Positions 3,338 through 48,374 of a DNA stretch of 64,000 nt are shown here, piece after piece (the first letter of the stretch is position 1; every line of letters starts with the position of its first letter). Origin of the DNA: Chenggangzhangella methanolivorans (GTDB lineage: Bacteria; Pseudomonadota; Alphaproteobacteria; Rhizobiales; Methylopilaceae); assembly GCF_019797865.1 (NCBI RefSeq), contig NZ_CP081869.1:186001-250000 (forward strand), written 5' to 3'. Position numbers and translations under genes: made by a program. The notes beneath the pieces are model-generated. The model was not told where the DNA came from, did no database searches, and saw only the letters and a list, made by a program, of their open reading frames with translations.

Positions 3338-5784
3338 TCAAAGCTTCGGACGGGTCGCCTGCGGATCGACGAACGGCTTCAGGGAGACGCTCGCCGGGAC
3401 GAGCGCGCCGGCGACGTCGAGCTGATAGTCTCCGCTCATCACGAACTGCGCGTCGACGCCGCCCGGGTCGCGGACGTAGCCATAGCCGATCGGCCGTCCG
3501 ATCGTGTGCCCGAAGCCGCCGCTCGCCAGCCAGCCGACGCGCTTGCCGTCGCGCAGGATGGTCTCGCGGCCCAGAAGGATCACGTCCGGGTCGTCGACTG
3601 TGAAGCCGGCGAGCAGGCGCGGCAGCGGCTCGCCGGCCTGCTCGACCAGCGCGGCGCGGCCGAGGAACGGAGTTTCGGACTTCAGCTTCACCGCCCAGCC
3701 GAGCCCCGCCATCCGCGGCGTGTGGTCGGGGCCGATCTCGGCGCCCCAGGCGCGGTAGCCCTTTTCGAGCCGCAGCGTCTCGATCGCCCGGTAGCCGGCG
3801 AGCGCGAGCCCATGGGGCCGGCCGGCCTCCGTCAGCGCCTCGTAGACGGTCGCCGCGAACTCGGTCGGGACGTGAAGCTCCCAGCCGAGCTCGCCCACAT
3901 AGGTGACGCGCAGCGCGAGCGTCGGCGCGCCCGCGACCGAGATTTCGCGCACCGTCCCGAACGGAAAAGCGGCGTTCGACAGGTCGTCGGGCGAGATGGC
4001 CGACAGCACGTCGCGGGCGCGCGGGCCGAACAGGCTGAGCACGGCGCGCGAGGCGGTGACGTCGACGAGATGGGCGTCGCAATCCTCCGGGATGTTCTTT
4101 GATATCCAGTCGAAGTCGCGGGTCGCGAAGCCCGTGCCGGTGACGATGTAGAACCGGTCCTCGGCGAGGCGTCCGACCGTGAGGTCGCATTCGACGCCGC
4201 CACGGGCGTTCAGCATCTGGGTGTAGGTGAGCGCGCCGACGGGCTTGGCGACGTCGGCGGCCGCGATCCAGCTGAGCGCCTTCTCGGCGTCGCGCCCGAC
4301 CATCAGGAATTTCGCGAAGGACGACTGGTCGAAGAGGGCCGCGCGCGCTCGCGGCACGCCTCGTGCTCGCGCTTGACCGCCCCCACCAGTTCGGGCGGCC
4401 GTAGGAGTATCGGTCGTGGGCGTCCTCGCCCTCGCCCGCGAACCAGTTCGGCCGTTCCCAGCCGAGCTTCTCGCCGAACACGGCGCCCGCCGCCTTCAGC
4501 CGGTCGTAGAGCGGCGAGCGGCGCAATGGGCGGCCGCTGTCGTGCTCTTCGGAGGGCCAGGCCATCGTGTAGTGCTTGGCGTAGGCCTCGAGCGTGCGGG
4601 TCTTCACCCAGGTCTCGTCGCGATGGTTCAAGCCGAAGCGACGGATGTCGACGGGCCAGAGGTCGTAGGGCGCTTCGCCCTTGGCGACCCATTCGGCGAG
4701 CGCCATGCCGGCGCCGCCGCCGGACGCGATGCCGAAGGCGTTGAAGCCGCAGCCGACATAGACGCCCTTGGTCTCGGGCGCCGCCCCGAGGATGAAGTTG
4801 CCGTCGGGCGTAAAGCTCTCCGGGCCGTTGATCAGCTGCTTGACGCCCGCGGTCTCGAGCGCCGGCACGCGTCCGAGCGCGAGCTCCATGATGGGCGAGA
4901 AGTGGTCCCAGTCCTCGTCGAGCAGCGAGAACGAAAAGTCCTTGGGCGGCCCGCCGGGCGTCTCCCAGGGCAGCGGATTCGGCTCGTAGCCGCCCATCAC
5001 GAGGCCGCCGACCTCTTCCTTGTAATAAGTGAGCCGGTCGGGATCGCGCAGCGTCGGCAACCCGCGGGTGACGCCCTCGATCTGCTCCGTCACGATGTAC
5101 TGGTGCTTCACGGCGGTCAGCGGGATGTTGACGCCCGCCATCCGGCCAAGCTCGCGCGACCAGAGGCCGGCGCAGATCACCAGCTTCTCGCAAGCCACCC
5201 GACCGTGATTGGTGACGACCGCGACCACGCGCCCGCTCTCGATCTCGACGCCCTCGACCGAGACCTGCTCGCGGATCGTGACGCCCGCCATCCGCGCGCC
5301 CTTGGCGAGCGCCTGGGTGATGTCGGAGGGGTTCGCCTGCCCGTCGGTCGGCAGGAACGCCGCGCCGACGACGTCGTCGACGCTCATCAACGGCCAGAGG
5401 TCCTGCGCTTCCTTTGGCGTGAGGAGCTGCATCTCGAGCCCGAACGAGCGCGCGGTAGTGGCCTGCCGCTTTCACCTCGGTCCAGCGGTCCTTGTTGCAG
5501 GCGAGGCGCAGGCCGCCGTTCATCTTCCAGCCGGTCGCAAGACCCGTCTCGGCCTCCAGCTCCTTGTAGATCCGGACGGATTCGCCGAGCAGCTGGGTGA
5601 TGTTGGCGCTTGTCCGCAGCTGCCCGACGAGCCCGGCGGCGTGCCATGTCGAGCCTGAGGTCAGCCGGTCGCGCTCGATCAGCAGCGTCTCAACGCCAAG
5701 CTTGCCGAGGTGATAGGCGGTCGAGCAGCCGACGATGCCGCCGCCCACGACGACGACCTTGGCGGATGAGGGCAGTTCGGTCAT
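3338..5784 (-). CDS. FAD-dependent oxidoreductase with GcvT domain (dimethylglycine/sarcosine dehydrogenase-like)
   Basis: About 815 residues, the usual length for the two-domain dimethylglycine/sarcosine dehydrogenase family. The N-terminal half has the FAD-binding GGGIVGCSTAYHLG and SGSTWHAAGLVGQLR, the region where these enzymes carry covalently bound flavin. A linker with the family signature YSYGRPNWWG follows. The C-terminal half is an aminomethyltransferase (GcvT) fold that in this family passes the released one-carbon unit to tetrahydrofolate (LGWELHVP, GYRAIETLRLEKGYRAWG). Start MTELPSS overlaps the stop of the phosphotransferase gene by ATGA. The frame breaks near 5450 and near 4370, so the protein is spread over three frames; both are likely indel errors. 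Expected role: oxidative N-demethylation of the amine imported by the neighbouring ABC system. The exact substrate is not determined. Confidence 0.86.
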
Positions 5785-8952: not shown

Positions 8953-9984
8953 TCACGCCGCGACCTTCCGCTCTCGGCCGACCAGCACGTCGATCATCGC
9001 GAGCCGGTCCACCACCCCGATGACCTCGCCGCGCTCGACCACGGCGAACGGCTTTTCGGAGCTCTCGACGTCATGGGCGAAGCTCGCGATGCGGCTTCCG
9101 GCGTCGATCCGGCCGGCGAAGTCGCTCGCGCCCGCGACCGGGGCCATCACCGAGCGGGCGGTCAGGATCTTGGCGCGCGGGGCGTCGCGGGTGAAGGCGC
9201 GGACGTAGTCGGTGGCGGGGTTCAGCACGAGCTCCTCGGCCGAGCCGATCTGCGCCACGCGGCCGTCCTTCATGATCGCGATGCGGTCGGCGATCCGGAC
9301 CGCCTCGTCGAAGTCGTGGGTGATGAACACGATGGTCTTCTTCAGAAGACCCTGAAGCCGCAGCACCTCGTCCTGCATCTCGCGGCGGATCAGCGGGTCG
9401 AGCGCGGAAAACGGCTCGTCCAGGAACCAGAGGTCCGGCCCGACCGCGAGCGAGCGCGCGATGCCGACGCGCTGCTGCTGGCCGCCCGAAAGCTCGCGCG
9501 GGAACCGGTCCTCGCGGCCCCCGAGACCCACCAGCTTGATCATCTCGAGCGCACGCGCCTCGCGTTCGGCGCGCGGCCGCCCCTGCACGTCGAGCGGGAA
9601 CGCCACGTTGCCGAGCACGGTGAGGTGCGGCAGCAGCGCGAAGTTCTGGAACACCATGCCCATCTGGTGGCGGCGGATGCGGATGAGCTCGTGCTCGGGC
9701 ATCTTCGCGAGATCCCGCCCCTCGAACAGGATCTCGCCCGCGGTCGTGGGCGTGAGGCCCGACAGGCACCGCACCAGCGTCGACTTGCCGGAGCCCGACA
9801 GGCCCATGATCACGAAGGTCTCGCCGCGGGCGATGTCGAGGTCGACGTCGATGACGGCCGGGACGATCCCGGCCGCCGAGAGAGCCGCGGCGTCGGCGGA
9901 AAGCCTGCCGTCGGTCACGAAGCGCTCGGGCCGCGCGCCGAAGAGTTTTGCGACGCCGCGCGCGGCGAGGATGGAGTCAGGCAT
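8953..9984 (-). CDS. Quaternary-amine ABC transporter ATP-binding protein (ProV/OpuAA-like)
   Basis: 343-residue cytoplasmic ATPase. Walker [11 protein letters not shown]-loop region VFQNFALLPHLTVLGNVAF, signature LSGGQQQRVGIARSLAV, Walker B LWFLDEP and switch FITHDFDEA are all present. After about residue 245 it carries the accessory C-terminal region of glycine-betaine transporters (CBS-like), ending FAVVERGEVIGVVDRLAMIDV. In ProV/OpuA this part senses ionic strength or stabilises the dimer. It is followed by a repeat-rich 280-base gap and then the permease. Together with the ProX-like protein and the double permease it makes a complete glycine-betaine-type importer. Confidence 0.93.
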   Translation of the reverse strand: MPDSILAARGVAKLFGARPERFVTDGRLSADAAALSAAGIVPAVIDVDLDIARGETFVIMGLSGSGKSTLVRCLSGLTPTTAGEILFEGRDLAKMPEHELIRIRRHQMGMVFQNFALLPHLTVLGNVAFPLDVQGRPRAEREARALEMIKLVGLGGREDRFPRELSGGQQQRVGIARSLAVGPDLWFLDEPFSALDPLIRREMQDEVLRLQGLLKKTIVFITHDFDEAVRIADRIAIMKDGRVAQIGSAEELVLNPATDYVRAFTRDAPRAKILTARSVMAPVAGASDFAGRIDAGSRIASFAHDVESSEKPFAVVERGEVIGVVDRLAMIDVLVGRERKVAA

Positions 9985-10022
9985 CGGATCGGCTCACATG
10001 CCGCGAGATCGAAACCTACCGC

Positions 10023-10118
10023 CGTCATGCCCGGCGGCGGCCGGGCGTCCACGAATTTCTAAGATCGCAGAGCGCTGCGACGAAGTCGTGGATGCCCGCG
10101 CAAAGGCGCGGGCATGAC
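10023..10118. repeat. GTCATGCCCG...CGGGCATGAC mosaic repeat, copy A
   Basis: About 96 bp bounded by GTCATGCCCGGC and GCGCGGGCATGAC, with inner CCACGAA and AAGTCGTGGATGCCCG. The whole unit is a nested inverted repeat. Related copies occur at 22749-22840 and 62493-62585. It fits the BIME/RIME class of Rhizobiales intergenic elements. It lies between the binding-protein and ATPase genes. Confidence 0.75.
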
Positions 10119-10159
10119 AGCGGAACGGGCGGCGCGAGAAAAGCATCAACGCCGATCGG

Positions 10160-11116
10160 TCACTGGATCCACTTCTTCCAGCGGTCCTCGTTCTTGGCCA
10201 TCCAGTCGTCGACCACCGCCTCGACCTTCTGGCCCTCAAGATCGACCTTGGCGGCGAGCTCGCCGATCTCCTTGTTGTCGAACGTGTAGGCCTTCACGGC
10301 CTTGTAGGCCCCCGGCCACTTGTCCTTCATGCCCTGCCAGACGGCCTTGTAGATCGGCCCGCGGGGCTTGGCGCAGTCGTACTTGGCGTCCTTGTTCACG
10401 CCCCAGGCCGGATCCTCGTAGCAAGCCTTCTCGTAGGGCGGGAACTTGATCCACTCGCCCTTGAACTTGATCGGCGCCCAGTGCGGCGCATAGATCCAGA
10501 GCAGGATCGGGGCCTTACGATCGTAGGCCGACTGCAGCTCGGCGAACATCGCCGCGTCCGTGCCCGCGTGCACCACCTCGAACGGCAGGTCGAGCGCCGC
10601 GACGCGCTCTTCGTCATAGCCGCCCCAGGTCACTGGGCCGCCGAGATACCGGCCCTTCGGCGCGGTCTCCGGGGTGGAAAACACCTCGGCGCATTCCTTC
10701 AGCGCCTTCCAGTCCGGCAGGCCCGGGCACTTCTCCTTCATGTATTCCGGGAACCACCAGTCCTCGATCGCCTGCATGCCGGTCTCGCCGACATTCTCGA
10801 CGCCGCCGGCCGCGATCGCCTCGTCCATCGCCTCCTTGGCGGTGGTGGCCCAGACCTCCATGGCGACGTGAAGGTCGCCGGTCCGCATGCCGGCGAACTG
10901 CGCGAGATAGTCGGCCTGGACGTAGTCGACGTTGTAACCGGCCTTCTTCAGCGTCTCGCCCATGATGCGGGCGGTGATCAGCTGGCCGGTCCAGTCGTGC
11001 AGGGTGACCTTGATCGGGTCCTTGGACTCCGGCGCGGCCGTGGCGGCGCCTGTCGTCCCGGCCATGGCGAGCGCGACGAGCCCCGCCGTCATTGCGCGCG
11101 TCAACTGATGCAGCAT
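10160..11116 (-). CDS. Glycine-betaine-type ABC transporter substrate-binding protein (ProX/OpuAC-like)
   Basis: 318-residue periplasmic binding protein. The signal peptide MLHQLTRAMTAGLVALAMAGTT has a cleavage site near GAATAA. The mature protein has the OpuAC pattern VTLHDWTGQLITARIMGETLKKAG and aromatic-rich ligand-pocket regions (IEDWWFPEY, VTWGGYDEE, WIYAPHW) typical of quaternary-ammonium binding cages. It is the first gene of the operon, divergent from the DeoR regulator. Family knowledge supports import of a betaine or choline-like compound; the exact ligand is not shown by the sequence. Confidence 0.92.
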   Translation of the reverse strand: MLHQLTRAMTAGLVALAMAGTTGAATAAPESKDPIKVTLHDWTGQLITARIMGETLKKAGYNVDYVQADYLAQFAGMRTGDLHVAMEVWATTAKEAMDEAIAAGGVENVGETGMQAIEDWWFPEYMKEKCPGLPDWKALKECAEVFSTPETAPKGRYLGGPVTWGGYDEERVAALDLPFEVVHAGTDAAMFAELQSAYDRKAPILLWIYAPHWAPIKFKGEWIKFPPYEKACYEDPAWGVNKDAKYDCAKPRGPIYKAVWQGMKDKWPGAYKAVKAYTFDNKEIGELAAKVDLEGQKVEAVVDDWMAKNEDRWKKWIQ

Positions 11117-36523: not shown

Positions 36524-37938
36524 TCACTTGCCGAGGCCGAACCACCAGGTGGCGAGACCGAGGAAGGAGAAGAAGCCCACCGTGTCGGTGACGGTCGTCA
36601 GGAACACGCCCGAGGCGACGGCCGGATCGGCCTTCAGCTTGTCGAGGGTGAGCGGAATGAGGATGCCGAACAGCCCGGCGAAGACGAGGTTGGTCACCAT
36701 GGCGCAACCGATGATCACGCCGAGCTGCGCGGGTTCTGGAACCAGAAGCCCGCCGCGAGCGCGATCAGGATCGCCAGCACCACGCCGTTGGCGAGCCCGA
36801 CAAGCGTCTCGCGGCGCACGAGGCGGCGGGCGTTGTGGCCGCCGATGTCGCGGGTCGCGAGCGCGCGCACCGCGACCGTCATCGATTGCGTCCCGGCGTT
36901 GCCGCCCATCGAGGCGACGATCGGCATCAGCACGGCGAGCGCGACCATCTGCTCGATGGTCCCTTCGAACAGCCCGATGACGCTCGCCGACAGGATCGCG
37001 GTCACGAGATTGATCAGCAGCCAGGGGATGCGGCTTCGCGCTGTGTAGAACACCGGGTCGGAGATCTCCTCGTCGCCGGTGACGCCGCCGAGCGCGCGAA
37101 GGTCCTCGTCGGCCTCCTCCTCGATGACGTCGACGATGTCGTCGACGGTCAGCACGCCCACCAGCCGGTCGGCGTCGTCGACGACGGCGGCCGAGACGAG
37201 GTTGTAGCGTTCGAAGGTGCGGGCGGCGTCTTCCTGGTCCTCGGTCGCGCTGATGGTGCGCGGATCGTCATCGAGGATCTCGGAAAGCAGCTTGGAGCGT
37301 TTGGCGCGCAGCAGGCGGTCGAGCGGAACCGAGCCCACGAGCTTGAACGTCGGGTCGACGACGAAGATCTCGTAGAAGGTGTCGGGCAGGTTCTCGGCGT
37401 CGGCGACGTAGTCGATGGTGTGGCCGACGGTCCAGAACTCGGGCGCGGCCACGAACTCGGTCTGCATGCGCCGGCCGGCGCTGTCTTCCGGATAATCGAG
37501 GCTGCGGGTCAGCGCCACGCGCTCGGGCGCGGGGATCTGCTCGAGGATCTTGGCGCGATCCTCCTCGTCGAGGTCCTCGAGAATGTAGACCGCGTCGTCG
37601 GAGTCGAGCTCGCGCACGCCCTCGGCGACCGTCTCCGGCGCCAACTCCTCGAGCAGCTGGACGCGGACCGTCTCGTCGATCTCGGTCAGCGCCGTGAAGT
37701 CGAAGTCCTTGCCCAGCAGCTCGACGAGCTTTGGGCGGTCGTCGGGCTCGAGCGTCTCGATCAGGTCGCCGACGTCGGATTCGTGCAGGTCGCCCGCGAT
37801 CTCGCGCACGCGCTCGGCGTCATTCGCGCCGATCGCGGCGGCGACCTGATCGACGAAGGCCTGGATCAGGCGGCCGTCCTCGTCCCGGATCTCGTCGTCC
37901 GCGTCGGACACGGCGCGCGTTTCGGCGTCAGCGTTCAT
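36524..37938 (-). CDS. mgtE: Magnesium transporter MgtE
   Basis: About 471 residues. N-domain with acidic helical repeats (ALTEIDETVRVQLLEELAPETVAEGVRELDSDDAV), two CBS domains (FYEIFVVDPTFKLVGSVPL and VSAAVVDDADRLVGVLTVDDIVDVIEEEADED) and a C-terminal five-helix pore domain with LMPIVASMGGNAGTQS, the family's signature. Mg2+ gating by the cytoplasmic domains is known for the family. The frame breaks near 36732 (FWFQNP then AQLGVIIGCAMVTN), one base missing in a CCG context; the last two helices are then complete. Confidence 0.93.
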
Positions 37939-38106
37939 CGCGGGCCTTTTGGAAAATCTGGAGAAAACGCGAGAGGCGCGCGCCGGGTGTAGGGGGTTTG
38001 GGCGCCTTCGGCAACCGGCCGCGGACCGGCGCCTCGCCGCGCTCCAGGCGGGGCGCGGGCGCGCGCCGAGGCGACGAGCGCCTCGGCCGCAGCCTCGTTC
38101 AGCGCG

Positions 38107-39075
38107 TCAGAACTTGGTGATCCAGGAGGTCACCACGGACCAGTAGCGCACCGTGTTCTCGGCGTGCGCGGTCGTCGTCGCCTTGACCTTCAGCGACGTC
38201 CCGAGCGACGGCAGGTCGTAGGCCGCGACGCCGCCGAGCTGCAGAAGCTCGCCGCGGCGCCCGTCCGGCGGAATGCGGCGGCCCGAGATGCGGTCGTCCT
38301 GGGGCTGGAACGCGTAGATGCCCGCAAGCCCCGCCTGCAGCGGACCGAACCGCTCCGTCACCGCGAAGTCGAGATTGACAAGGTCGCCGGTCCGGTAGTC
38401 GGTCTTCCGGTTCTCGAAATAATTGTTCCAGAAGAGCTTGGCGCTGAACTCGGTGCCTTCCCCGAGCCAAGCCGGCGTCGTGTAGGTGAGCGCGACGGTC
38501 GGCGACACGTCCCAGATCCCGGTGCCGGCGCTGATCGCCTGCGCCCGCGGATCGCGGTGGTCGTACTCCCCGACAGGAATCACCGCTCCGAGACCGAAGA
38601 GCACCGACAGGCCCTCGGGGATCGGATAGGCGTCCGGGTGCTTCGACGGCCGCCATGTCCCGAAGAAGCGGCTCCAATGGGCCTCGACGTAAGGATCGCC
38701 CATGCCGTTTTCGCAGGCGCGATCCTGGCCCGCGAACAGCTTGCCGCATTGGCGCACGAAGGGCAGCAGCCCGCCGAAGGTCAGCAAGCCGCCATAGACG
38801 GTCGCGTCGGGCACGTACATCAGGAACGGCCCGCCGATCGCCTTCGTCAGCTTGGCGTCCTCGAGGCCGAAGACGCGGTTCCCCTTCCCGTCCACGAAGC
38901 CCCGGGTTTCGGCATAGGCCTGGACGGTCCCGCCATAAAACCCCGGCGGCAGCGGCAGCGCCGAGCGCATGTCGGTGCCGCCGATGGGCCCTGCGGCCGC
39001 GGGCCCTTCCACAGCGGCCGACGGGCCGCACCACACCGCCGCGGCGACCCCCGCCGCCCAAACCCCCACGCGCAT
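38107..39075 (-). CDS. Predicted outer-membrane beta-barrel (phenol MetA-pathway/SphA-like)
   Basis: 322 residues with signal peptide (MRVGVWAAGVAAAVWCGPSAA). Composition and pattern fit the MetA-pathway phenol-degradation/SphA-like outer-membrane family: LPLPPGFYGGTVQAYAETRGF, alternating aromatic strands, GIYAFQPQDDRISG, and a C-terminus VRYWSVVTSWITKF ending in Phe, as in outer-membrane barrels. It begins 11 bases after the LuxR-type regulator gene and is likely cotranscribed. It could export or import a hydrophobic molecule; with the divergent acyltransferase gene, movement of an acyl-amino-acid product is an attractive but unproven idea. Confidence 0.72.
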   Translation of the reverse strand: MRVGVWAAGVAAAVWCGPSAAVEGPAAAGPIGGTDMRSALPLPPGFYGGTVQAYAETRGFVDGKGNRVFGLEDAKLTKAIGGPFLMYVPDATVYGGLLTFGGLLPFVRQCGKLFAGQDRACENGMGDPYVEAHWSRFFGTWRPSKHPDAYPIPEGLSVLFGLGAVIPVGEYDHRDPRAQAISAGTGIWDVSPTVALTYTTPAWLGEGTEFSAKLFWNNYFENRKTDYRTGDLVNLDFAVTERFGPLQAGLAGIYAFQPQDDRISGRRIPPDGRRGELLQLGGVAAYDLPSLGTSLKVKATTTAHAENTVRYWSVVTSWITKF

Positions 39076-39086
39076 CACAAAAACCC

Positions 39087-40169
39087 TCAAGATCCGAAAG
39101 ACGGCAGACCGGCCAAAAACCGCACGAGTTCGACGCGCCGCCCGAAACCGGTCTTGCGCAGCACGGATTTCACGTGCGTGCGCAACGTTTCCCCACCCAT
39201 GCCGAGCCGGCGCGCGACCTCGTCGCCTGAACCGCCGCCAAGCAATTCCTGTGCAACCCGCGCCTCGGTCGGCGTCAGGTCGAACAAGGCGCGCAGGAGC
39301 CCGGCGTCCGGCGCAGATCCGGCCTCGACGCGGGTCACGAGCAGCAGCGCGGTCCGGGCGCCGAAGAGGTCTCGGGCCGCGCCCTCGGTCGGCAGGATGT
39401 GGACCACCAGCGGCGGCGACTCGCTTTCGGCCGGAATCGCGACGGACAAGGGCGGCTTGCGTCCGCCAGGCCCCGGCGCGCGGGCGAGCGCGGCATCGAT
39501 CAGGCCCGCCGCCCCCTCGAACGCCACCCGCAGCCGGTTGCGGGCGCCGATGGCGAGTTGCGGACCAAGCGCCGCGAACAGATCGTTGGCGGCGAGCACG
39601 TGCCCGTCGGCGCGCGCAAGCGCCGCCGGCATGTCGGCGACCGCGAACGCCTCGACGGCGCTGCGCGCGCGCTCGAAACGCAGCTTCGCGGTGAGCAAGG
39701 ACGAGCGCGAAATGTGCGGGCGCAACGCCTCGAGCACCCGCATGGAGTCGTCGGAGATCGGCCCGTCGCGCCACATCTGCTCGATCGAGAACAGCAGGAT
39801 TTCGCCGCTCGGCACGGGCGTCGCGAGCGCGGCGCTCCAGCCGTAGCCGCGCGGCCGCAGGAACTCTTGCACCATCGGCAGGTTCTGCACTTCGTCACGG
39901 GTGTAGAGGTCGACGTCGCGCACGAAGCCCGAATAGCCGTCCCGCAACAGCCTCTCCATCCGGTCGTTCTTCTGCGCCCAGCCGCTTTCGAAGTAGTCGC
40001 GCACGTCGGCTCGAAGGCCGGGCGACGACACCCAGACGGGCGCCGCGCGGTCGATCGTGATGATGGTGCAGCCGGCGGCGCCGATCCGAGTCGTCACGGC
40101 GTCGAGGGCGTCGGGCCACAGTTCCGGGATGGCGGCCGCTTCGTAAATTCTCTCGACGAGATCGAGCAT
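39087..40169 (-). CDS. LuxR-family transcriptional regulator
   Basis: 360 residues. The C-terminal HTH is LFDLTPTEARVAQELLGGGSGDEVARRLGMGGETLRTHVKSVLRKTGFGRRVELVRFL, a clear LuxR/FixJ-type helix-turn-helix. The N-terminal ~250 residues do not match the classic acyl-homoserine-lactone domain. They show an autonomous sensor-like layout (MLDLVERIYEAAAIPELWPDALDAV, then a PAS-like section). It is divergent from the FeeM-like acyltransferase gene across 211 bases containing a GGGGGA palindrome, and upstream of the outer-membrane protein gene. A second protein of the same layout is at 45160-46240. Confidence 0.85.
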   Translation of the reverse strand: MLDLVERIYEAAAIPELWPDALDAVTTRIGAAGCTIITIDRAAPVWVSSPGLRADVRDYFESGWAQKNDRMERLLRDGYSGFVRDVDLYTRDEVQNLPMVQEFLRPRGYGWSAALATPVPSGEILLFSIEQMWRDGPISDDSMRVLEALRPHISRSSLLTAKLRFERARSAVEAFAVADMPAALARADGHVLAANDLFAALGPQLAIGARNRLRVAFEGAAGLIDAALARAPGPGGRKPPLSVAIPAESESPPLVVHILPTEGAARDLFGARTALLLVTRVEAGSAPDAGLLRALFDLTPTEARVAQELLGGGSGDEVARRLGMGGETLRTHVKSVLRKTGFGRRVELVRFLAGLPSFGS

Positions 40170-40300
40170 CGCGTGAGAGCCGTCCCTTATCCGCCTGCAA
40201 CGTCGCCCTGAAACTCCGCCGCATCATCGCCGGATCTCCGTCCGATTGGCAGAACGGGGGAGTACGTACGTAGTTTTTAGCATCCTCCGCGACGGCCACC

Positions 40301-40316
40301 TCCCCCATTTGGGGGA
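40301..40316. promoter_or_regulatory. Palindromic operator candidate in LuxR-FeeM divergent promoter
   Basis: TCCCCC-attt-GGGGGA is a perfect inverted repeat. A lone GGGGGA half-site lies at 40256-40261. Location between the divergent regulator and acyltransferase genes, about 65 bases upstream of the acyltransferase start, fits a binding site for the LuxR-type protein. Inference only. Confidence 0.35.
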
Positions 40317-40380
40317 CGCCCGCAAAGATCGGCCTCACGCATCCTTGATAAACACCACAAGTTGCGCCGGAGGATGCTGA

Positions 40381-41115
40381 ATGGAGCTCGCGAACACGGC
40401 GGCGGCAGATGCGGAGCGGGAGGCCGGATCGTACGCCGCAGCGGCGTTCTCGCTGTCGCTTGGCGGACCGGCTTCAATCGCTCGGTCGGAACCGATCGAG
40501 CCGCGCCCGCTGCGGGAGGCGCTCGTCGCGCATTCCGCCTTCCCGCATGTGCGGATCGCCGACACCTATGCGCGCCTGAGAGCGATCGGCGCGCTCCGCC
40601 ACCGCCAATACGTCGCCGGACAAGGCAAGCCCTACGCCTCCGCCGTGCGGGACGCCGGGACGTTGCTGGAGCTCGCCGACTTCTCCTCGGTAAACCTCTA
40701 CGCCGTCGACCGCGACGGCCTGACGGCGGCGATGCGCGTCGGCCCGCTGGTGGGCTCGAACCATCCGAAAGCCCGGCACTTTCAGTCCATCGCCGAAGAC
40801 CTGAACGTCAGCGCCCGACGGACGCTCATCTGCACCAGGCTCGTCCGCGATCCCAGACATTCCGGCCGGCATGCGGTCGACCTGGTGTCCTTCGTCCGCG
40901 TCCGAACCGTCGAGGCCGGATGGCGCTATTGCCTGATGCAAACCTCGGAAGCGCTGGTGCGCTTCTTCGAGCGCCAGGGCTTCACGAGCACCGGCCGCTG
41001 GAGCCAGGACGAGAGCGCCGGCCGGCTCCAGACCATGCTGCTCGACACGCATGACCTTCCCGTCCGCCCGAAAGCGGCGCGGACCGGCGACATCCACATC
41101 CAGGGCGCAGCGTGA
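40381..41115 (+). CDS. FeeM/LuxI-like GNAT N-acyltransferase (N-acyl amino acid synthase family)
   Basis: 244 residues. A GNAT fold of the autoinducer-synthase/FeeM group is suggested by LRAIGALRHRQYVAGQGKPY, then a LLELADFSSVNLYAVDRDGLTAAMRVGPL block, where the first Arg/Tyr and the Asp...Asn...Tyr pattern correspond to the acyl-ACP-dependent N-acyl amino acid synthases. The C-terminal part has LICTRLVRDPRHSGRHAVDL and YCLMQTSEALVRFFERQGF. The expected reaction is transfer of a fatty acyl chain from ACP to an amino acid amine; the amino acid and chain are unknown. A GGAGGA ribosome site precedes the start. The stop overlaps the next gene, so the two form a tight pair. Confidence 0.55.
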   Translation: MELANTAAADAEREAGSYAAAAFSLSLGGPASIARSEPIEPRPLREALVAHSAFPHVRIADTYARLRAIGALRHRQYVAGQGKPYASAVRDAGTLLELADFSSVNLYAVDRDGLTAAMRVGPLVGSNHPKARHFQSIAEDLNVSARRTLICTRLVRDPRHSGRHAVDLVSFVRVRTVEAGWRYCLMQTSEALVRFFERQGFTSTGRWSQDESAGRLQTMLLDTHDLPVRPKAARTGDIHIQGAA

Positions 41116-41862
41116 TGACCCGAATCGAAACCTGCATCGCGGACGCCCAGGCGCTGTTCGCCGAACTGCTCGAGAGCTACCTGAAGAACGGCGGCGCGAC
41201 GACGGTCGACCAATACATCCGCTACCTCTCGTTCCAGTACCACCTGACGCGCGGCGTGCAGCGCTACTTCATGAGCGCGGCGGCGCACGCCGACCTCGCG
41301 CGGCGGCGCAGGCTCCGCGCCTTCCTCGTGAACTTCGCAAACGAGGAGGAGCTGCACTACCTCGTCGCCGCCAACGACCTGCATCAGCTCGGGCTGAAGC
41401 CGATGCCGGCGCCGTTCGACGTGGAGCTCTGGCACGCCTATTTCGAGCGCGTGGTTGTCGACCGGCCGTTCGTGCGCCTCGGCGCGGCGACGATTCTCGA
41501 AAACATCTCGAACGGTGCGGCGCGCCCTTGGGTCCGCAAGGCCCTGACCGGCGCCTTCCTGACGCGCGACAACACCAAGTTCCTCGTGCTGCACCAGCAC
41601 GAGACCCTGCCGCATGGCGACCAGATCCTCGAAGCGCTCAGCTCGGCGAATCTGGAGGAGCGGCACCTTGCGGATCTCGCCGAGGGCGCGCGCAAGGGCA
41701 CGGTGCTCTATCTTCGCATGGCCGAATGGGCGCTTCGCCCGGGATGTCTCCTCGCTCTCCGACCGGGACGACGAGGCGATCGCGGAGGCTGAGTTCGAGC
41801 GGATTCGGTCCTTCGACATGGCGGAGCTGGCCGAAGACGCGCCGCTCGCCGCCGCCGGCTGA
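41112..41862 (+). CDS. Heme-oxygenase-like metal-dependent redox enzyme
   Basis: About 249 residues, all-helical, resembling the iron-containing redox enzyme (heme-oxygenase-like diiron) families such as CADD/UndA relatives. Candidate metal ligands, numbered from the ATG at 41115: the NEEELH cluster (E77-E79, H81), E129 in LGAATILENIS, and H160/H167 in LHQHETLPHGDQIL. In the known H-x3-D-x2-H motif the Asp position is Thr164 here, so a full diiron centre is uncertain. The start is GTG 41112 or ATG 41115, overlapping the acyltransferase stop. The frame breaks near 41745 and continues as RDVSSLSDRDDEAIAEAEFERI to 41862. Likely role: oxidative tailoring of the N-acyl product (inference). Confidence 0.6.
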
Positions 41863-41902
41863 CGCCGGGAGTCTCCGCCGCCCGCCAGGGCCCTGAAAAA
41901 GC

Positions 41903-41936
41903 AAAACCCCCGGAGCGTTTCGGCTCCGGGGGTTTT
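41903..41936. terminator. Bidirectional terminator between redox enzyme and tRNA genes
   Basis: AAAACCCCCGGAGC-gtttc-GGCTCCGGGGGTTTT: very stable stem with A-run on the left and T-run on the right. It can serve the plus-strand operon ending at 41862 and the minus-strand tRNA ending at 41973. Confidence 0.85.
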
Positions 41937-41972
41937 GGGATCGCATGAGGTTACGGATGCGATCAGCTTGCT

Positions 41973-42057
41973 TGGTGCGGTCGAGAAGACTCGAACTTCC
42001 ACGGGTTGCCCCACAGCGACCTCAACGCTGCGCGTCTACCAGTTCCGCCACGACCGC
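41973..42057 (-). tRNA. tRNA-Leu (GAG)
   Basis: 85 nt. The acceptor stem GCGGTCG pairs with CGACCGC and is followed by an encoded ACCA. D-arm TGGCGGAACTGGTAGACGC, anticodon stem-loop with TTGAGGT (anticodon GAG complementing 42021-42023), long variable arm as expected for leucine tRNA, and T-loop GTTCGAGTC. On the minus strand. Confidence 0.93.
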
Positions 42058-42128: not shown

Positions 42129-42401
42129 TCAGGCGGCCTGGTCGGCCGGCGTCCGCTCGGTGCGTCCCTTGGCGTCGCGTTCGATCATCGAGGTGATCTC
42201 GACGCCGATGCGGTCGCCGTTCACGAACACCGAACCGCGCGCGATCGGATGGTCGTTGGCGAGCACCGTCACGGCGTCGCCCTCGCTCGCGCCGAGCTCG
42301 ATCACCGCGCCGCGGCCCATTCTCAAGAGCTGGTGGATCGGCATGCTGGTCGATCCGAGCACCACCGAGAGCTCGAGGTTGACCTTGTCGATCTGCGGCA
42401 C
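42129..42401 (-). CDS. FliN-like SpoA-domain protein
   Basis: 90 residues from the GTG start (VPQIDKVNLELSVVLGSTSM) preceded by GGGAG. SpoA/FliN domain pattern: SMPIHQLLRMGRGAVIELGASEGDAVTVLANDHPIARGSVFVNGDRIGVEITSM. FliN is the flagellar switch and export-docking subunit, but no other flagellar gene is in this window, so this is an isolated copy and may serve in motility or type III-like secretion elsewhere. A longer upstream start is possible but not conserved-looking. Confidence 0.78.
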   Translation of the reverse strand: MPQIDKVNLELSVVLGSTSMPIHQLLRMGRGAVIELGASEGDAVTVLANDHPIARGSVFVNGDRIGVEITSMIERDAKGRTERTPADQAA

Positions 42402-42473: not shown

Positions 42474-43192
42474 ATGGTTCACCACGTGCTGAAAACCGAC
42501 CGATCCGCTTTGCCCGCGACGTTTCCGCCAGCCCCCGGCTCAGCCCCGGTCGAATGGCGCGTCAGCGACCGTCTCGTGACTTACGCGGAGGCGCTCGCCA
42601 AGATGGAGGCGCGCGCCGCCGCGATCGCCGACGGAAAGGCGGGCGAGCTTGTCTGGCTGCTGGAGCATCCGCCGCTCTACACCGCCGGCACGAGCGCCAA
42701 GGCCGCCGACCTCGTCGAGCCGGAGCGGCTGCCGGTGTTCCAGACGGGCCGCGGCGGGCAATACACCTATCACGGCCCCGGGCAGCGCATCGCCTACGCC
42801 ATGCTCGACCTGCGCCGCCGCGCGCCGGACCTGCGCGCCTATGTGGCCGCGCTCGAGGCCTGGCTGATCGCGACTCTCGACCGATTCGGCGTGACGGGCG
42901 AGCGGCGCGAGGACCGCGTCGGCGTCTGGGTGCGCCGGCCGGAGCGCGGCCGCGACGCGGAGGACAGATCGCGGCCATCGGCGTGCGGGTGAAGCGCTGG
43001 GTGACGCTCCACGGCGTCAGCCTCAACGTCGAGCCCGATCTGTCGCATTACGCCGGCATCGTCCCCTGCGGCGTGCGCGACCATGGCGTCACGAGCCTTG
43101 CCGATCTCGGCCGGGTGGTCTCGATGGCCGAGGTCGACATGGCGATGCGGGAGACGTTCGAGGAGATCTTCGGGCCGGCCGCCCGGGAATGA
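42474..43192 (+). CDS. lipB: Octanoyltransferase LipB
   Basis: About 240 residues. It transfers octanoyl groups from ACP to lipoyl domains. Motifs: [19 protein letters not shown], the family block [43 protein letters not shown], and the catalytic Cys in [13 protein letters not shown]. The frame breaks near 42965, where the expected EDKIAAIG reads with one A missing. The deletion falls in the codon of the conserved Lys of the KIAAIG motif, so the enzyme is intact only if that base is a sequencing error. Confidence 0.92.
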
Positions 43193-46363: not shown

Positions 46364-48374
46364 TCACTCGAACTCGAGGATCACCGCGTCGACCGCGAGG
46401 CTGTCGCCCGGCCTTAGCGTTGATCTTGGCGACCTTGCCGTCGCGCTCGGCGCGCAGCACGTTCTCCATCTTCATCGCCTCGACCACCGCGAGCGTCTCG
46501 CCGGTCTTGACCTCCTGACCCTCCTCGACCGCGATCGAGACCACGAGGCCGGGCATCGGGCAGAGCAGCTGCTTGGAGGTGTCGGCGATGACCTTCTCGG
46601 GCATCAGCGCATAGAGCTCGGCGATGCGCGCGCCGTGGACGCGGGCGTAAACCGCGACACCGCGATGCTGGATGTCGTAGCCGTAGTTCTTGGCCTTGCG
46701 GACCTGCGCCGCAATCTCCTGACCGTCGATCGTCCCGCGCCACACCGGCTCGCCGGGCTTCCAGTCGGTCTCGACGCGCTGGAGACGGATCTCCGAGCCG
46801 TCCTGCCCAAGCGTCCGCACGATCACGGCCTCGCCGATCGCCGAGGTCTCGACGCGGGTCGGCTCGCCGTCGAGCAGCACGGTGCGCAGCCGCTCCTTGG
46901 TGGCCGCGCCCTTGCGGAGCTGATTGGAGATGAGGCGGCGACGCTCCATCACCATCCAGTCGATCTGCGCCGCGATCGCGACCAGGGCCGCTGCGACTTC
47001 GCCTGCGGGCTTGCGAGGCGCGAAACCGTCCGGGAACTCCTCGGCGATGAAGCCGGTCGACAGTTCGCCCGAACGCCAGCGCGGATGCTCCATCAGCGCC
47101 GTGAGGAACGGGATGTTGTGCTGGATGCCGTCGATGCCGAAGGCGTCGAGCGCCCTGCCCTGCGCCTCGATGGCCGACAGGCGATCCGGCCCGTGGGTCA
47201 CGAGCTTGGCGATCATCGGGTCGTAATAGAGCGAGATCTCGCCGCCTTCGGTCACGCCGGTGTCGTTGCGCACCGTGATTCCGTCGGCGCTCGATTCGGC
47301 CGGCGGCGGTAGGCCGACAGGCGCCCGATCGAGGGCAGGAAGTTGCGATAGGGATCTTCGGCGTAGACGCGGCTCTCCACCGCCCAGCCGGTGAGCTTCA
47401 CATCTTCCTGCTGATCGCGAGCTTCGCCATAGGCGACGCGGATCATCTGCTCCACGAGGTCGATGCCGGTGACGAGCTCCGTCACCGGATGCTCCACATG
47501 AAGACGCGTGTTCATCTCGAGGAAATAGAACGACTTGTCCTGCCCCGCGACGAACTCGACGGTGGGCCGGAATCGTAGCCGACGGCCTTGGCCAGAGCGA
47601 CCGACTGCTCGCCCATGGCCTTGCGGGTCGCCTCGTCGAGCAGCGGCGACGGGGCCTCCTCGACGACCTTTGGTTGCGGCGCTGGATCGAGCATTTCGCG
47701 CTCGCCGAGATAGATGACGTGCCGTGCTTGTCGCCGAGCACCTGGATCTCGACGTGGCGCGGATTGACGATGAACTTCTCGATGAAGACGCGGTCGTCGC
47801 CGAAGGAGTTCTTGGCCTCCGAGCGCGAGGCGCGGAAGCCTTCCGCCACGTCATCGGCCGAGTGCGCGATGCGCATGCCCTTGCGCCGCCGCCGGCCGAG
47901 GCCTTGATCATCACCGGATAGCCGATCTCGTCGGCGACCTTCACGGCGTCCTCGGACGCTCTCGATCACGCCGAGATTGCCGGGCACGGGTCGAGACGTT
48001 GGCCTTGGCCGCCGCCTTCTTCGACTCGATCTTGTCGCCCATGGCCTCGATCGCCCCGGGATCGGGCCGATGAACACGACGCCGTTGGCCTTGAGCGCCT
48101 CGGCGAGGCCGCGCGCTCGGACAAAAAGCCGTAGCCGGGATGAACGGCTTCGGCGCCGGTCTCCTTGCAGGCGCGCAGGATTTCGTCGATCAGCAGATAG
48201 GACTGCGCGGCCGGCGGCGGGCCGATGCGCACCGCCTCGTCGGCCATCTCGACATGCAACGCGTCCTTGTCCGCGTCGGAATAGACCGCGACGGTCTGAT
48301 GCCCATCTTGCGCGCGGTCTTGATGACGCGGCAGGCGATCTCGCCGCGGTGGCGATCAGGATCTTCTTGAACAT
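46364..48374 (-). CDS. pccA: Propionyl-CoA carboxylase alpha subunit (biotin carboxylase + BCCP)
   Basis: About 670 residues. N-terminal [11 protein letters not shown]-grasp biotin carboxylase segments ([72 protein letters not shown]) and a C-terminal biotinyl domain [22 protein letters not shown] with biotin-Lys in VVEAMKMEN. The region just before the biotinyl domain and the partner pccB identify it as the propionyl-CoA type. More than six frame changes between about 47000 and 48340, plus one near 46425, scatter it over three frames. With an essential-looking conserved core, errors are likely. Stop at 46364 restores the normal end ([10 protein letters not shown]). Confidence 0.9.

Follow-up and report, generated by a model that had tools for sequence, protein, structure and literature searches.

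The subject of this study is a pair of adjacent genes in Chenggangzhangella methanolivorans that encode a GNAT N-acyltransferase of the LuxI/FeeM type and a putative heme-oxygenase-like dimetal oxidase (HDO). They lie in a stretch of 64,000 nucleotides (positions 186,001 to 250,000 of NZ_CP081869.1; "the window" below), which is part of one 5.54-Mb contig of a genome with 88% completeness. Our main finding is that the two enzymes form a recurrent unit: wherever we found an HDO of this family with its predicted metal ligands intact, an acyltransferase gene was directly upstream, and a subset of these units shares a LuxR-type regulator gene together with a short palindrome. We read this, with slightly better than even confidence, as a two-step pathway in a mobile cassette in which N-acylation would be followed by oxidation by the HDO, under control of the LuxR-type protein via the palindrome. 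Its product would be an N-acyl amino acid or N-acyl amine in oxidized form, with a possible role as a signal.

A preliminary description of the window had placed four genes here, with the LuxR-type gene head-to-head with the acyltransferase gene and a gene for an outer-membrane barrel protein beyond the regulator. The open reading frames and Pfam matches agree on all four genes and on this arrangement (Table 1). The observation holds and is firmer than when it was first put forward.

The acyltransferase and oxidase genes recur as a pair

A pattern scan with ligand-bearing HDO peptides as queries covered 84,980 species genomes, in which 45 matching stretches yielded 13 relatives of the window's HDO: four in Reyranella and one each in Methylopila, Belnapia, Methylobacterium terricola (L018), a Rhodopseudomonas metagenome-assembled genome (MAG), a Rhizobiales bacterium, a Rhodobacteraceae MAG, a Chromatiales symbiont, a Ramlibacter MAG, and a further proteobacterial MAG. 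Scanning 75 Reyranella-family genomes gave five matches, four of them already known, and added one relative (L037), which brings the total to 15 HDO loci including the window.

Directly upstream of all 13 HDO genes with intact ligands, which come from alpha-, beta-, and gammaproteobacteria, a profile search found a FeeM/LuxI-like GNAT gene; this count takes in locus L009, whose HDO is split into two pieces by a stop codon and whose GNAT is spread over two frames. Because the GNAT profile contained most of these GNATs, each locus was left out in turn, and the search recovered each of the 12 whose GNAT could be aligned, at E ~1e-16 or better. Chance adjacency of the two genes is rejected in view of this recurrence. 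As the preliminary description had noted, the GNAT gene of the window overlaps the start of the HDO gene (TGATG, stop over start), and listed open reading frame ends reveal a GNAT-HDO overlap in at least 7 of the 13 loci.

No GNAT was found by any profile in the 16.6 kb and 14.0 kb read around the two HDO genes that have lost ligands (L020 and L037; best E 0.75). These ligand-broken genes (7977-8717 in L020, 6959-7942 in L037) lie near an SDR gene and a gene for a 76%-identical long regulator-like protein, and the two loci are possibly a non-metal sister system.

The preliminary description had looked to co-occurrence across Hyphomicrobiales as a check. Strict pairing holds in other genomes; wide co-occurrence in that order is not supported because the genes are rare. 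GNAT matches were limited to 3 of the 347 genomes searched in the order, this one included, and to 2 of 18 in the family (own and query genomes counted). For the HDO, the own genome was the sole match among 385 in the class, and the M. terricola genus gave one match among 111 (own and query genomes counted).

The oxidase has a heme-oxygenase-like fold and a putative diiron ligand set

The second enzyme had been described as a heme-oxygenase-like metal enzyme, and both its modeled fold and its conserved residues support this. It reaches 29.4 bits against PF14518 (Haem_oxygenas_2; cut-off 28.9), and its structure model (pLDDT 87, pTM 0.84; low confidence for the final dozen or so residues, which come from out-of-frame letters) has the seven-helix heme-oxygenase-like fold. 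The best match in a fold search was PDB entry 3DDE (Sden_3740; E 1.5e-5, TM 0.78), which was the sole entry at E up to 0.001. Weaker matches at E 0.001 to 0.02 were TenA homologues, a CADD-like protein, heme oxygenases, and CADD, UndA, and BesC (these three at E 0.004 to 0.02), with AetD also among the weaker ones. A sequence search for solved relatives returned no believable one, only designed helical repeats and other chance matches, and a literature search for 3DDE found only unrelated papers.

Six putative ligands (E79, H82, E130, H161, E164, and H168), assigned by sequence pattern and spacing against AetD, are all present in 13 of the 15 sequences, the window's included. Their pattern ExxH / E / HxxExxxH agrees with the DxxH / E / HxxxExxH of AetD (D76xxH79, E140, H172xxxE176xxH179, PMC11611611), with the spacing of the last motif off by one residue. 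The HDO is alike in fold and pattern to UndA, CADD, BesC, AetD, and 3DDE, and is predicted to carry the three-histidine, three-carboxylate set of diiron HDOs; it differs from them in having a GNAT partner in every ligand-intact locus found. A metal-free heme-oxygenase-like protein of the TenA or PqqC type is disfavored by the kept ligand set, and the ligand-broken relatives are also the ones without a GNAT.

In the N-oxygenases SznF and RohS, auxiliary helix 2 supplies one more carboxylate ligand (PMC11611611). Near that place, judged by spacing only, the HDO alignment has no invariant or near-invariant Asp or Glu (helices 32-57), and because of this lack of a conserved acidic residue we predict a substrate-triggered oxidase rather than an SznF-type N-oxygenase.

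The acyltransferase is closest in fold to LuxI-type synthases and FeeM

The model of the window's GNAT (pLDDT 82) has GNAT topology, and its five best matches in a fold search of the PDB were TofI, MesI, RpaI, FeeM, and BjaI (E 5e-8 to 4e-7). All 13 aligned GNAT rows share R73, D100, and R119, which presumably correspond to the R...D...R of LuxI/FeeM enzymes. The Pfam FeeM model PF21926 gave a more divided picture: its cut-off was passed by the partners in L014, L015 (both copies), L016, and L019, those of L017 and L021 stayed below it, and the Pfam scan returned no PF21926 match for the partners in L010, L011, L012, L013, and L018 or for the two pieces in L009. The autoinducer synthase domain PF00765 was not among the Pfam matches of the window's GNAT at E up to 1. 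The earlier assignment as a FeeM/LuxI-like acyltransferase thus stands as far as nearest folds and invariant residues go and falls short at the Pfam FeeM cut-off. Neither of the two outcomes that the preliminary description had named as counter-evidence, a GNAT without a cofactor pocket or a second protein without any metal site, was what the structure models gave.

Phylogenies of the two enzymes differ in resolution. The GNAT tree has one supported clade of six (window, L010-L013, and L018; support 95/99) among otherwise diverse sequences, whereas most branches of the HDO tree lack resolution, so that the two trees do not test co-descent firmly.

A family of LuxR-type regulators shares a palindrome with the unit

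The regulator of the window had been described as a LuxR-type protein with a non-classic sensor domain, and its Pfam matches agree: a GerE helix-turn-helix above the cut-off, preceded by an unassigned N-terminal region of ~290 residues, and no autoinducer-binding domain. Against solved structures, only the helix-turn-helix end matched, apart from 33 residues that aligned with CMP hydroxymethylase entries. Seven of the 13 GNAT-HDO loci (window, L011-L015, and L018) have a LuxR-type gene next to them, and the products of these genes form one full-length family: profiles recovered the rows left out of them at E 1e-21 to 1e-91, and four central rows alone found L011, L012, and L018 at E ~1e-15 or better. 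Among the six relatives of the window's regulator, GerE passes its cut-off in L014, stays below it in L012 and L013, and has no match in L011, L015, and L018, and Pfam found an autoinducer-binding domain in none of the six. A profile search at E up to 0.01 found no member of this regulator family in the other loci.

Reading the LuxR-linked loci by eye gave the consensus TCMCCC-N4-GGGKGA. This palindrome stands before the unit in all seven of these loci, exact in six and with two mismatches in L013. Across 282 kb of loci plus window, the exact consensus has nine sites, compared to none in six simulated sets. Three of the nine played no part in defining the consensus: one lies before the GNAT gene of L008 (183 bases upstream of the first matched residue, the true start being unsure), one before the second GNAT gene of L015, and the third is in L014, at a distance from the unit. 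In L015 (4225-6527), a single HDO gene is flanked by two GNAT genes, and an exact palindrome precedes each of the latter.

Because the consensus had been derived from some of the counted sites, we also took a seed from the window only (TCCCCC-N4-GGGGGA) and compared it with the 400 bases that precede every other unit; unit starts were set by hand, with the sites already seen. A match within two mismatches was present in L011, L012, L013, L014, L015 (also before its second GNAT gene), L018, and L008; the best sites in L009, L010, L016, L017, L019, and L021 had four or more. This amounts to six of six other LuxR-adjacent loci versus one of seven without LuxR (hypergeometric P = 7/1716, or 0.004, calculated by hand), and chance rates for single matched units were 0 to 0.033. 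The 5.54-Mb genome itself contains two exact consensus sites, the second of them in a hairpin between genes that look phage-like by eye.

As in LuxI/LuxR pairs, a palindromic operator-like element precedes the synthase gene; the window's palindrome is unlike the lux box. The adjoining LuxR-type protein would bind this palindrome, judging from the shared occurrence of the two. The shared palindrome strengthens the proposed link between this regulator and the enzyme pair, and the suggested feedback of a lipid-amino-acid signal through the LuxR protein is possible. The regulator family is not exclusive to the GNAT-HDO pair: at least two more clear paralogues exist in the genome, one of them (L041; G000:C1:269805-270779) a gene with an in-frame stop adjoining rpoC (named by eye). 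The regulator gene of L015 likewise follows an rpoC-like gene, again named by eye.

A putative acylation-oxidation pathway and the order of its steps

In the pathway that we favor, the GNAT would take an acyl chain from acyl carrier protein (ACP) or CoA thioesters and join it in amide linkage to an amino acid or a related amine. The HDO, with its predicted three-histidine, three-carboxylate site and substrate-triggered like UndA, BesC, and AetD, would then oxidize the acylated product with O2. Next to a metal-bound carboxylate, this could be a desaturation, a decarboxylation, or a C-C cleavage. The adjoining LuxR-type protein would control the operon, and probably itself, through TCMCCC-N4-GGGKGA, and the oxidized N-acyl product would most likely be a signal or other secreted small molecule. 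The comparisons support the folds, the ligand conservation, the pairing, the common palindrome, and the site of insertion; the order of the reactions, the substrate, the product, the signaling role, and binding of the palindrome by the regulator are inferred.

Several observations weigh against this pathway. Intact HDO copies are over-represented among the loci because the scan peptides carried ligands. Locus L008 (G218) has a GNAT gene and the palindrome, and no HDO was found in its genome by a search made without a positive control there. Six of the 13 GNAT-HDO loci have neither an adjoining LuxR relative nor the palindrome, and the palindromes counted in the seed comparison had been seen by eye beforehand. 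Many GNAT partners miss the Pfam FeeM cut-off, and the window's own protein does so with 22.7 bits (E 9e-5) against a cut-off of 27. Ordinary GNATs are close behind the five best fold matches (302 PDB chains at E up to 0.001 in Foldseek), and the GNAT sequence profile, compared with solved structures, best matched serotonin N-acetyltransferase (E 2e-4), followed by TofI (0.002) and FeeM (0.21). The frameshift in the window's HDO gene (see below) and the breaks in L009 suggest that some copies of the cassette may be decaying. Finally, diversity among the GNATs far exceeds that among the HDOs, so that the acylated amine may differ by locus, or the HDO may act first.

The last of these possibilities, a reverse order in which the HDO would convert a free amino acid or amine and the GNAT would acylate the unusual product, ranks second, and we consider it unlikely. 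One headgroup with differing acyl chains would fit the mean column identities of 64% for the HDO and 30% for the GNAT (12 loci in common, one extra row in each alignment), and the single HDO gene between two GNAT genes in L015 fits as well. The same is true of the substrates of characterized HDOs, mostly fatty or amino acids according to a review (PMC13108848). On the other side stand the gene order, GNAT before HDO and overlapping as described above (weak evidence), and the example of UndA, which shows that an HDO can accept a long acyl chain.

Some loci belong to extended clusters. An alpha-oxoamine synthase (AOS) gene lies directly upstream of the GNAT gene in L012, L013, and L017. In the latter two, models for bioF and for serine palmitoyltransferase identify it (E 1e-67 to 4e-81, below their cut-offs), and in L012 it is recognized by 73% identity to L013. 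The order in L013 is LuxR, palindrome, AOS, GNAT, HDO, SDR, and a LuxI-family gene; the SDR (~50% identity) is also found by the HDO genes of L020 and L037. The LuxI-family gene of L013, from a Reyranella MAG, is located at 9851-10543 (PF00765, E 1.5e-8, above the cut-off). In L017, a YcaO-like gene (4531-5571; SagD model E 2e-10, below the cut-off) precedes AOS, GNAT, and HDO. These extended clusters suggest that the amine substrate varies by locus, or that some loci carry a whole pathway and others use enzymes encoded elsewhere.

A sphingoid-like or alpha-aminoketone lipid could be the product if the AOS made an aminoketone that the SDR reduced, the GNAT N-acylated in the manner of bacterial ceramide synthases, and the HDO oxidized. 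The AOS genes and the SDR and LuxI homologue downstream in L013, with the same SDR by two further HDOs, speak for this proposal, yet AOS is present in 3 and SDR in 1 of the 13 GNAT-HDO loci and neither has a match in the window. In this reading, which we hold to be improbable, loci lacking AOS or SDR would draw on enzymes encoded elsewhere.

Relation to known systems

Both enzymes belong, or nearly belong, to established families; their pairing, the operator-like palindrome, and the pathway were not found in the literature searched. This search (titles and beginnings of abstracts, with subscription journals mostly outside its reach) returned no FeeM/LuxI-type synthase with a heme-oxygenase-like enzyme, and the word acyltransferase does not occur in the accessible text of the HDO review (PMC13108848).

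The nearest published logic, by analogy, is that of N-acyl tyrosine synthases. These cluster with a desaturase that is TyzC-like, depends on O2, belongs to the nitroreductase family, and has another fold (PMC12479983). FeeM clusters (fee; nasY/tyz) resemble our unit in the GNAT N-acyl synthase fold (PDB 2G0B was matched) and in the O2-dependent tailoring enzyme beside the synthase. They differ in that tyz has the TyzC nitroreductase and the ThiF-like TyzB, whereas here we see an HDO, no ThiF partner, a LuxR-type regulator with a palindrome, and a GNAT that in the window stays below the FeeM cut-off. The LuxI synthases TofI, MesI, RpaI, and BjaI with their LuxR partners share the fold, the presumed R...D...R, and the LuxR-type neighbor, but the window's GNAT lacks an Autoind_synth Pfam match, its regulator lacks a recognized autoinducer-binding domain, and an oxidase is added. 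In the Pvf/valdiazen and fragin clusters, a dimetal oxygenase helps to make a small signal together with nonribosomal peptide synthetase (NRPS) enzymes and by N-oxygenation; here, a GNAT is present instead and the extra N-oxygenase carboxylate shows no sign.

A bolder interpretation, which we put forward only tentatively and think doubtful, is a new signaling class: a LuxI/FeeM-type synthase and a dedicated diiron HDO would make a new oxidized N-acyl signal (for example, an N-acyl dehydroamino acid or enamide) that a LuxR protein with a new sensor region would sense and answer via TCMCCC-N4-GGGKGA, all of it mobile. HDOs carry out unusual oxidations, and functionally validated ones number only about a dozen (PMC13108848). 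Two strictly paired genes that come with a regulator of their own and a short, testable palindrome would offer a compact route to a novel HDO reaction and perhaps to a new signal, and the palindrome can serve as a marker for finding further members.

Insertion site, barrel protein, and distribution

Table 1. Features of the insertion between mgtE and tRNA-Leu, in window coordinates
Feature	Position	Strand	Evidence or remark
Outer-membrane beta-barrel type protein (PF13557)	38107-38979	-	Pfam E 1e-28
LuxR-type regulator (GerE helix-turn-helix)	39087-40169	-	GerE E 3e-6, above cut-off
Operator-like palindrome TCCCCCATTTGGGGGA in the region from which the LuxR and GNAT genes diverge	40301-40316		Recurs at LuxR-linked loci and L008
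LuxI/FeeM-type GNAT N-acyltransferase, putative N-acyl amino acid/amine synthase	40381-41115	+	Pfam, fold search, invariant residues
Heme-oxygenase-like dimetal oxidase (HDO), putative	41112-41862	+	In frame 41112-41792; tail in another frame
Terminator-like hairpin between HDO gene and tRNA-Leu	41902-41937		Terminator score on - strand only
tRNA-Leu(GAG), right border of insertion site	41973-42057	-	Congener comparison

The order mgtE, tRNA-Leu(GAG), gene at 42129, and lipB is kept in all 12 congeners compared (the stretch of L057 ends before lipB), and only in the window are the four genes present at this site, where they fill 4.0 kb (37938-41973). The gap between mgtE and the tRNA gene measures 156-260 bases in seven congeners and 1.8-2.0 kb, with another gene inside, in the other five. 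Judged by eye, this gene is phosphatase-like in L055 and encodes a shared protein of ~520-550 residues in L061, L062, L064, and L065. The stretch looks like a hotspot of gene gain in the genus, at which the four genes may have arrived together or one by one.

Integration by tRNA duplication was set aside, as no flank-to-flank direct repeat was reported at the insertion and no integrase was noticed by eye among the open reading frames of the window. Spread by plasmids or viruses was set aside likewise, given that 72,556 plasmid records held no GNAT or HDO match and viral contigs no HDO by the two patterns scanned. The rare, scattered distribution and the insertion at a near-empty site support mobility, and the cassette looks like a mobile, self-regulated biosynthetic unit.

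Membership of the barrel protein in this unit is doubtful. The protein shares the insertion in this strain. A tblastn search of L007-L021 returned nothing for it at E up to 1e-3, and it has no match at the mgtE-tRNA site of the 12 congeners. A place in the conserved module was rejected for lack of a match beside the other loci, which also leaves its role unsupported; a function as exporter is weakly founded. The barrel protein enters into one further explanation that we regard as very unlikely, namely that the pair serves detoxification or resistance, with the GNAT acylating and the HDO oxidizing an outside compound, the LuxR protein as its sensor, and the barrel as a porin. The naming of PF13557 for phenol degradation, the regulators without a recognized autoinducer domain, the scattered distribution, and the presence of phosphinothricin acetyltransferases among the GNAT fold matches (ranks 17 and below) would suit such a function. 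The five best fold matches, however, are acyl-homoserine lactone synthases and FeeM, and the barrel protein is not conserved alongside the two enzymes.

Frame breaks and terminator-like elements

The in-frame part of the window's HDO gene ends before the conserved tail of the family, which continues in another frame after a break near 41740. Comparison with three congeners shows similar breaks in mgtE (near 36728), lipB (near 42968), and the gene at 46407-48304 (near 47306). Such single-base frame breaks in conserved genes make the window's assembly seem error-prone, and because neighboring genes show them too, the late HDO frameshift is probably an assembly error. Terminator-like matches were about as frequent as in shuffled sequence (two found, shuffle mean 1.7), and hairpins like the one downstream of the HDO gene are, by eye, also present at the empty site of L056-L058.

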